Virus record (IMG/VR): IMGVR_UViG_3300036760_000361
Location: 1-56,147 of that record
Length of the DNA stretch: 56,147 nucleotides
Reading direction: 5' to 3' (one strand)
Origin: a virus
Shown: positions 4,637-24,768 of the stretch, one piece after another
How the letters are laid out: every line of letters starts with the position of its first letter
How positions within the stretch are numbered: position 1 is the first letter of the stretch
Program-made: the position numbers and the translations under genes
Notes under the pieces: generated by a model
Told to the model about the DNA's origin: nothing
Seen by the model: only the letters and a program-made list of their open reading frames with translations
Database searches by the model: none

Positions 4637-4807
4637 ATGAATAAAAGAAAAGACACAATAAATAAATTGTTTACCGCTATTCTTGCAAAAAAAGTAGTTT
4701 CATATTATGCAAGGATGCAATGTCCATCTTATAAAAACAAAACAATAGTAGACTGCATGTATTGTATAAACTATAGTATATGTAATCCCAAAAAATATCT
4801 ACCATGA
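4637..4807 (+). CDS. 56-aa Cys-rich small protein
   Basis: The gene is short but convincing: it has AAAGGA upstream and its stop overlaps the radical SAM start (ATGA at 4804-4807). Cysteines lie at about residues 29, 40, 43 and 49 (C-x10-C-x2-C-x5-C), suggesting metal binding. An accessory or substrate peptide of the following radical SAM enzyme is a speculative possibility because of the tight coupling. Confidence 0.6.
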   Translation: MNKRKDTINKLFTAILAKKVVSYYARMQCPSYKNKTIVDCMYCINYSICNPKKYLP

Positions 4808-5985
4808 AAAAGTTTTTATTTTGTCAATTCAGTAACAAACTCCTTAATCCTAAAAATGACAGTTTGTCTGATAGGTATTATAATGCTCTTTATGAGCATA
4901 AGGAGCAGGATGGCTATTATAGAGATAATAACTTCTTTGAATTGCCATTGTGGATAGCCGAGACATGCGGTTGTCTAACTGGTAATTTCAGAAAAGAGTT
5001 ATATATCATTACAGACATCAAACAAGCCATTAAGGACATTAGAGAAAAGTATGCCGATTACGTGCTTTTCTCTGTGTTAGACGTTAACAAGGAATATGTA
5101 GCCGAGATAGCAAGGCATTATTTAGGCAAGGCTAAAGTCTGTGTCGGTGGTTACATAGATTTTAGCTACTTCCACAATAAGAATATTCATATCTTCAATG
5201 GCATTAAGGATTTTATTGAGTACTTAGGCTTGAAGTATGAATATAACCTCGATTATAGTCTATTCTCTGCATATAAGACAATTCCCCGCTTAACACTAAG
5301 TAAAGGTTGCCTCAACCGCTGTAAATTTTGCACCGTAGAAAAAACCGTGACAGCTGTTAGTGAACTTGACATCTTAAAACAAATAGAAAGCTTTAGAGTG
5401 TTGCGGTTTAGGCTCATTTACCTTAATGATAAAACCTTTGGGCAAGCTCAAAATTTTACTATGTTATATGACTTATATAATATAGTAAAAGAATATAATC
5501 CTGATTTTTTGGGCTTTATAATTCAAACAACTTGCATGAATATTCTTGATAATAGTATACAAGAATTGCTTGAAAAAGGTATAATCTATGCTGTGGAGAT
5601 AGGTATAGAAACATTCAATGATAATTTACTCTATGCATTGAGTAAACCTCAAACAGAGCAAACAATAATTGATGCAATAGAAACTTTGAAAAAATATCAA
5701 GTAAGAATTATACCAAATATAATTATAGGTATACTCAATGAAAATGAATATACTTATGATAAAACCTTGAATTTTTTAAGGCATTATCAAAAGGATATTT
5801 ATTTATTGAATATCTATAACCTTGCTGTGTATGAAAATACAGAGCTATCACAAGAGATTATTAAGAACAGTGATAGCGATATTAATGAGAATATCACAGA
5901 TAAAAGTTTCTATTCTAAGTCTCAAAAAATAGCTAATGAAAAATTCTATAATGAAATATTTAAATTAGCTATGGAGATATTATGA
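4804..5985 (+). CDS. Radical SAM enzyme with N-terminal Rossmann-like domain
   Basis: The 393-aa protein has the cluster-binding motif C169-x3-C173-x2-C176 in the context LSKGCLNRCKFC. Typical downstream radical SAM elements follow: EIGIET near 265 and an Elp3/B12-type region with IIPNIIIG near 300. The first 150 residues resemble the cobalamin-binding-type domain that precedes many B12 radical SAM enzymes, but the DxHxxG cobalamin motif is not evident. It is not QueE, which is much shorter. The gene is coupled on both sides: ATGA with the 56-aa gene and ATGA with the HhH-like gene. Substrate unknown; modification of DNA, RNA or a peptide is possible. Confidence 0.8.
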   Translation: MKKFLFCQFSNKLLNPKNDSLSDRYYNALYEHKEQDGYYRDNNFFELPLWIAETCGCLTGNFRKELYIITDIKQAIKDIREKYADYVLFSVLDVNKEYVAEIARHYLGKAKVCVGGYIDFSYFHNKNIHIFNGIKDFIEYLGLKYEYNLDYSLFSAYKTIPRLTLSKGCLNRCKFCTVEKTVTAVSELDILKQIESFRVLRFRLIYLNDKTFGQAQNFTMLYDLYNIVKEYNPDFLGFIIQTTCMNILDNSIQELLEKGIIYAVEIGIETFNDNLLYALSKPQTEQTIIDAIETLKKYQVRIIPNIIIGILNENEYTYDKTLNFLRHYQKDIYLLNIYNLAVYENTELSQEIIKNSDSDINENITDKSFYSKSQKIANEKFYNEIFKLAMEIL

Positions 5986-23961: not shown

Positions 23962-24385
23962 AACATTAAGACAGATTTCCATAAAATGGTTAGATTTATT
24001 GTGGGGGAGAATAATACACAATCGAGACAAGGACACGTGTCAATGGTGCGGAAGGTCTTATGGTAAGGTGGATGCCCATCATATTCATGGTAGAGGGTTA
24101 TTTGTAAGATGGGATACCAGAAATGGAATTTTATTATGTTATCGTTGCCATCAGCATAGAATCCACACTGACCACGAAGGTCTTAGGAAGGTCTGTATTG
24201 AAAAAATAGGACAGAGGGTTTATGACCAATTATATTTTTTATCGCATAGGCCATATAGTAATGTAGATTTTGAACATTGGGAAAAACTATTGTTGGGTGA
24301 GATAAAAGATTTACATATTATCCCACCACCTAAACCAAAAAGACTAACCGAGCAACCTAAGTTACCACTAAGGAGTAAAAAATGA
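23942..24385 (+). CDS. HNH endonuclease
   Basis: CQWCGRSYGKVDAHHIHGRG (residues about 34-53) and ILLCYRCHQHRIH (near 67-79) carry the two Cys pairs and the HH motif of zinc-bound HNH nucleases. 147 aa, single-domain, with a Pro/Lys-rich tail. Similar phage proteins act near recombination or packaging; free-standing homing cannot be excluded. Confidence 0.8.
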   Translation: MKTRKVKTLRQISIKWLDLLWGRIIHNRDKDTCQWCGRSYGKVDAHHIHGRGLFVRWDTRNGILLCYRCHQHRIHTDHEGLRKVCIEKIGQRVYDQLYFLSHRPYSNVDFEHWEKLLLGEIKDLHIIPPPKPKRLTEQPKLPLRSKK

Positions 24386-24645
24386 AAGTAGTACATTGCA
24401 AAAAAGAACCATACGATATTTACATAGGAAGACCCAGTAAATGGGGAAATCCATTTTTAATAGGAAAGGACGGAAGTAGAGATGAAGTTATAGAAAAATA
24501 TAGAAAATATATTTTAAATAAACCAGAACTGATGGCGTCCTTACATGAACTAAGTGGAAAAACATTGGGTTGATGGTGCAAACCTCGTGCGTGTCATGGG
24601 GATATATTGATAGAATTAGTGGAAAATAAATCAGACAAAAAATAA
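24382..24645 (+). CDS. DUF4326 protein interrupted by UGA (candidate selenoprotein)
   Basis: The frame reads YIGRPSKWGNPFLIG, matching DUF4326, and stops at TGA (24571-24573) after SGKTLG. The same frame continues as WCKPRACHGDILIELVEN to TAA at 24643-24645, which is precisely the family's C-terminal motif (usually GCWCKPxxCHGDVL). The UGA therefore stands where the first Cys is expected. A seven-bp hairpin follows at the distance expected for a bacterial SECIS element. Alternatives are a nonsense mutation, programmed readthrough or a sequencing error. UGA is a normal stop in other genes here, so the genetic code is standard. Family function is unknown. Confidence 0.6.
24583..24601 (+). promoter_or_regulatory. 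SECIS-like hairpin downstream of in-frame UGA
   Basis: CCTCGTG (24583-24589) pairs with CATGGGG (24595-24601) using two G-U wobbles; the loop is CGTGT with G in second position. The loop G is 18 bases after the UGA. These match published bacterial SECIS search rules as I recall them (loop 16-37 bases away, G in the first two loop bases). Confidence 0.45.
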
Positions 24646-24726: not shown

Positions 24727-24768
24727 GGGTGAGGGGAAGCCTAAAGTCAATCCTCTCACCCATTTTAT
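24727..24768. terminator. Bidirectional terminator between convergent operons
   Basis: GGGTGAGGGGA (24727-24737) pairs with TCCTCTCACCC (24751-24761) with one G-U wobble and a 13-base loop, then ATTTTATTA follows. It sits between the end of the early operon and the stop of the last late gene (24777). A smaller hairpin GGCATCT...AGATATGCC lies just before it (24689-24715). Confidence 0.8.

Follow-up and report, generated by a model that had tools for sequence, protein, structure and literature searches.

The virus-derived stretch of DNA studied here, an IMG/VR record of 56,147 bases with a G+C content of 34% (referred to as the window), carries a gene of the DUF4326 family in which a UGA stands exactly at a conserved cysteine codon and is followed by a SECIS-like hairpin. 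We think it quite probable that the product of this gene is a phage selenoprotein of DUF4326 type, with selenocysteine (Sec) being inserted by the machinery of the host, and we favour this reading ahead of a nonsense mutation, an assembly error, and ordinary read-through. Regarding the family as a whole, the evidence leans towards DUF4326 being a viral selenoprotein family, the first one known mainly from phages, in which Sec took the place of Cys on at least two independent occasions, in phages exploiting the Sec machinery of their hosts.

The DUF4326 reading frame and its internal UGA

The frame starts with an ATG at position 24382, reaches a TGA after ...SGKTLG, and continues in frame up to a TAA. 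The following features were assigned to this region:

24370–24375, plus strand: probable Shine-Dalgarno sequence AAGGAG, 6 nt 5' of the ATG (from sequence)
24382–24645, plus strand: DUF4326 gene; counting the internal UGA as a sense codon, it has 87 codons (PF14216, 9e-30; one internal TGA)
24571–24573, plus strand: in-frame UGA, candidate Sec64, in place of the first, conserved Cys of CWCxPxxCHGD
24574–24642, plus strand: conserved C-terminus WCKPRACHGDILIELVENKSDKK with the invariant C66, P68, C71, and H72 (from the alignment)
24583–24601, plus strand: SECIS-like hairpin with a 7-bp stem CCUCGUG/CAUGGGG and the loop CGUGU at 24590–24594, about −7.7 kcal/mol
24643–24645, plus strand: true stop TAA

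Codon 64 is the UGA, and the other 23 codons up to the TAA spell the C-terminus typical of the family, WCKPRACHGDILIEL.... The read-through product matched PF14216 (DUF4326) over residues 2–78 with an E-value of 9.1e-30 and 103.6 bits, and a six-frame search of the window yielded 95.2 bits, placing the gene above the curated cut-off of 25 bits. Every residue of the CWCxPxxCHGD motif is present except for the first Cys, whose codon is the UGA. In an alignment of 64 sequences, residue 64 is a Cys in at least 90% of the rows, while C66, P68, C71, and H72, all located 3' of the UGA, are invariant; none of them would be present if the product ended at the UGA.

A preliminary description of this DNA had placed a UGA at the conserved Cys of a DUF4326 protein and an intact family C-terminus in frame beyond it, and both statements proved to be correct, the former to the base. 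The comparison of homologues that it had proposed for this site was also carried out. Among 73 motif matches in the homologue loci, the first Cys of the motif is encoded by TGT in 47 and by TGC in 23 (Cys in 70 of 73), two display GGT, and TGA is found in the window only. GGT (Gly) occupies the site in the close relatives L012 (L012:3289) and L013 (L013:1590), and the first Cys is therefore not indispensable. In the protein tree, the row of the window has a short branch (0.11), and the protein thus shows no visible sign of decay.

The hairpin 3' of the UGA

Nine bases (24574–24582) separate the UGA from the hairpin, and the loop G at 24591 lies 18 bases past the UGA, exactly as previously described for the stem-loop CCTCGTG-CGTGT-CATGGGG. 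Bacterial SECIS elements are constrained to a loop of 3–9 nt with a G within its first two positions, a stem of 4–16 bp, a distance of 16–37 nt from the UGA, and an energy of at most −7.5 kcal/mol (PMC13188914). With a loop of 5 nt bearing the G at position 2 and then a U, a stem of 7 bp, a distance of 16 nt between UGA and loop, and −7.7 kcal/mol, the hairpin of the window falls within these limits, and the bacterial SECIS geometry claimed for it thus stands, its spacing and energy both lying only just inside. An Rfam search gave no SECIS or tRNA-Sec match. In the fdhF element of E. coli, the critical G is located about 19–20 nt after the UGA, and the hairpins of the window and of a second gene, L082, are close to it in this respect. 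The stem in the window uses CGT and GGG; in the part of the gene upstream of the UGA, Arg is encoded only by AGA (three codons) and Gly only by GGA or GGT (six codons).

Plain RNA stability was rejected as evidence, as the downstream stretch as a whole folds ordinarily. The overall stability of the 61 nt 3' of the UGA is not unusual (z = +0.76), and the 45-nt MFE of the window gave P = 0.37 on synonymous recoding, so stability as such proves nothing. The peptide PxxCHGD itself favours complementarity, and each downstream peptide was therefore recoded synonymously with the codon usage of the same phage. Under this recoding, the presence of the hairpin had a P of 0.00015 for the window and of 0.0084 for L082, and the Cys-encoding homologues passed the hairpin test at chance rate (7 of 166, with 5.2 expected). 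When 173 homologues were ranked by synonymous P, the window came first and L082 third, L083 in that table being the same gene as L082. L082 and the window were also the two best of 65 homologues in the strict bacterial SECIS test, whose pass rate among all TGA triplets is about 1.1% in either phage. With the loop-G rule dropped, the window, L082, and L087, a third sequence with a UGA at this Cys, ranked 2, 3, and 5 of 175, and the chance of finding three UGA sequences in the top five is 1.1e-5. When bulges and side stems were permitted, about a third of the homologues (56 of 173) passed the SECIS test, and this looser version was discarded as not discriminating.

We settled on the strict version of the test, with its contiguous stem, once the hairpin of the window had been seen. 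This hairpin was also part of why the window was reported; only L082 is therefore free of selection on the hairpin, and taken alone it gives a P of about 0.01. As a side observation, two homologues with Cys at the site, L115 (TCACGGG/CTCGTGA) and L110 (13-bp stem), revealed unusually strong hairpins after the Cys codon, which could be SECIS relics or chance.

Further UGA-containing genes and competing explanations

A scan of 2.9 million viral contigs in IMG/VR for a UGA at the first Cys codon inside the motif, without regard to any hairpin, uncovered one further match, the intact gene L082. It is located in a phage of 95.9 kb (G001), is undamaged both before and after the UGA, and lies distant from the window gene in the protein tree; the two phages share no DNA similarity and belong to different terminase lineages. 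The hairpin of L082 (loop GUC, 8 bp, 19 nt from the UGA, −9.7 kcal/mol) likewise conforms to the bacterial SECIS constraints. UAA or UAG at the first Cys codon was absent from the same scan, which is a weak control since two changes from Cys are needed. A UGA at the second Cys occurred once in IMG/VR, in the otherwise intact L093, and a UGA at the third Cys gave no match; isolated nonsense changes or errors hence exist at about this frequency, and a UGA alone proves little. L093 (reverse strand of contig IMGVR_UViG_3300001335_000513), in which the second Cys codon of CWC is the UGA, displays no SECIS-like hairpin (−1.3 kcal/mol). It probably represents a nonsense mutation or an error, so such events also occur in this collection.

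Four matches with a UGA at this Cys were obtained from 85,000 prokaryotic genomes, of which only L087 is a DUF4326 gene; L084–L086 were dismissed as chance matches. L087 (L087:1–8000) comes from a Clostridiales MAG, where a phage-like contig bears this DUF4326 remnant. Its UGA is at the same Cys, and its hairpin of 11 bp fails the loop-G rule; the remnant was rejected as a full case because its N-terminal part is missing. SelA (4e-143), SelB, and tRNA-Sec are present in this MAG. On its contig, the remnant is found near a DprA/SLOG-type gene and an AAA_24 ATPase gene. A search of two phyla, with 399 genomes each, brought up no UGA cases beyond those already known.

The most serious competitor of the selenocysteine reading is a recent nonsense mutation that turned a Cys codon (TGY) into TGA, in which case the frame would not yet have decayed, the hairpin would be coincidental, and nothing but an inactive stump of 63 residues would be made. 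TGA is a single step away from either Cys codon, L093 provides an intact gene with a UGA at the second Cys and no hairpin, and the Gly of L012 and L013 shows that close relatives do without the Cys. However, a nonsense mutation does not predict a hairpin, yet one is present in both the window and L082, which are top-ranked among the 173 homologues, and UGA was encountered only once at the second and third Cys together, compared with once in addition to the window at the first. We regard this explanation as unlikely. A single wrong base introduced by sequencing or by metagenomic assembly, of which L093 may be an example, is a good deal less probable still, as errors would not pick twice those gene copies that also bear a SECIS-type hairpin.

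Regarding the genetic code, 13 of 56 long open reading frames of the window phage terminate at TGA, and in most of them the frame stays open for only a short distance thereafter. TGA thus serves as an ordinary stop and the genome is not recoded; UGA is a normal stop in the phage of L082 as well, and an alternative code was rejected. Neither a tRNA-Sec nor a tRNA gene of any other kind was found in the window. Functional read-through without selenium, with a suppressor or near-cognate tRNA inserting Trp or Cys at the UGA, perhaps aided by the hairpin, and with a short and a long product as the outcome, agrees with the intact frame and with the fact that hairpins 3' of stop codons can stimulate read-through, but it is the least probable of these accounts, given a phage that carries no tRNA and uses TGA as a normal stop, and a UGA exactly at the conserved Cys with a bacterial SECIS loop and spacing, which fits Sec better.

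The selenocysteine reading suggested in the preliminary description is therefore supported by the UGA at the Cys, by the geometry of the hairpin, by the unrelated L082, and by L087 in a genome with SelA, SelB, and tRNA-Sec; it falls short of proof, as a UGA without a SECIS also occurs (L093). According to this selenocysteine reading, SelB-GTP-Sec-tRNA(Sec) of the host would bind the hairpin at 24583–24601 during infection, and the UGA at 24571 would be decoded as Sec under its control. SelB proteins vary as to which hairpins they recognise. The predicted product is a protein of 87 residues with Sec64 at the end of a beta-strand beside the conserved C/CH residues. Where the Sec machinery of the host or selenium is absent, a protein of 63 residues without the conserved motif would result.

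Known selenoproteins, fold and phage context

Bacterial selenoprotein genes such as those of the E. coli formate dehydrogenases also have the UGA at the Cys position of their homologues and a hairpin right after it, with a G and then a U in the loop, 16–37 nt from the UGA and at or below −7.5 kcal/mol (PMC13188914); in contrast to these genes of cellular genomes, the one described here is carried by a phage. We found no mention of DUF4326, phages, or viruses in the text of that review. Precedents for Sec in rhodanese-like proteins are the rhodanese-like selenoproteins, forms 1–5 (PMC13188914). They share the exchange of Cys for Sec with our candidate, and DUF4326 has been placed in the rhodanese-phosphatase superfamily (PMC9503650), but it is a compact family of 80 residues with the CWCxPxxCHGD motif, and neither its sequence nor its fold brought up a rhodanese structure in our searches. 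The window protein is clearly a member of the DUF4326 proteins of phages and large DNA viruses (9e-30, with all motif residues after the UGA), differing from them in that, in every sampled viral relative except L082, the site is occupied by Cys (or Gly).

An AlphaFold model (pLDDT 93.5) places residue 64 at the end of a strand (61–64), which is followed by a loop with C66, P68, C71, and H72 and then by a helix (73–85). With its strand, loop, and helix, this site of the model is similar to where rhodanese-phosphatase enzymes have their catalytic Cys. Neither profile searches nor Foldseek with this model gave a match in the PDB, rhodanese structures included, and a DUF488-type match of the protein was weak (E = 0.045). 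As the PDB searches gave no fold match, an enzymatic role is something we infer; going by the published superfamily placement, Sec would probably provide the enzyme, whose substrates would be of the ADP-ribose or phosphate type, with a nucleophile or redox centre of higher reactivity.

Little has been written on selenoproteins of bacterial viruses, and our literature search found no report of a DUF4326 selenoprotein or of a phage selenoprotein. The same UGA arrangement in an unrelated phage suggests that bacterial viruses can make them. If the reading is true, phages would be the unexpected carriers of a new selenoprotein family, and a phage gene dependent on the selenocysteine pathway of the host would tie infection to selenium supply. 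Standard viral gene calling would misannotate such a gene as a truncated protein. The Sec would also point to the functional residue of a family without known biochemistry, possibly acting in NAD/ADP-ribose conflict.

For its capsid and terminase proteins, the window phage has its best relatives mostly in phages of Gammaproteobacteria; at identities no higher than about 43%, these are too remote to infer the selenocysteine ability of the host. None of the ten records related via the capsid protein contains DUF4326, and no phage relative of the window with the UGA kept was found. The early region of the window also encodes a radical SAM protein (4804–5985; Pfam 5.8e-13, no PHROGs match). An inverted repeat, GGGTGAGGGG...CCTCTCACCC, spans positions 24727–24761 between the early and the structural gene blocks, which converge here, and is probably a bidirectional terminator.
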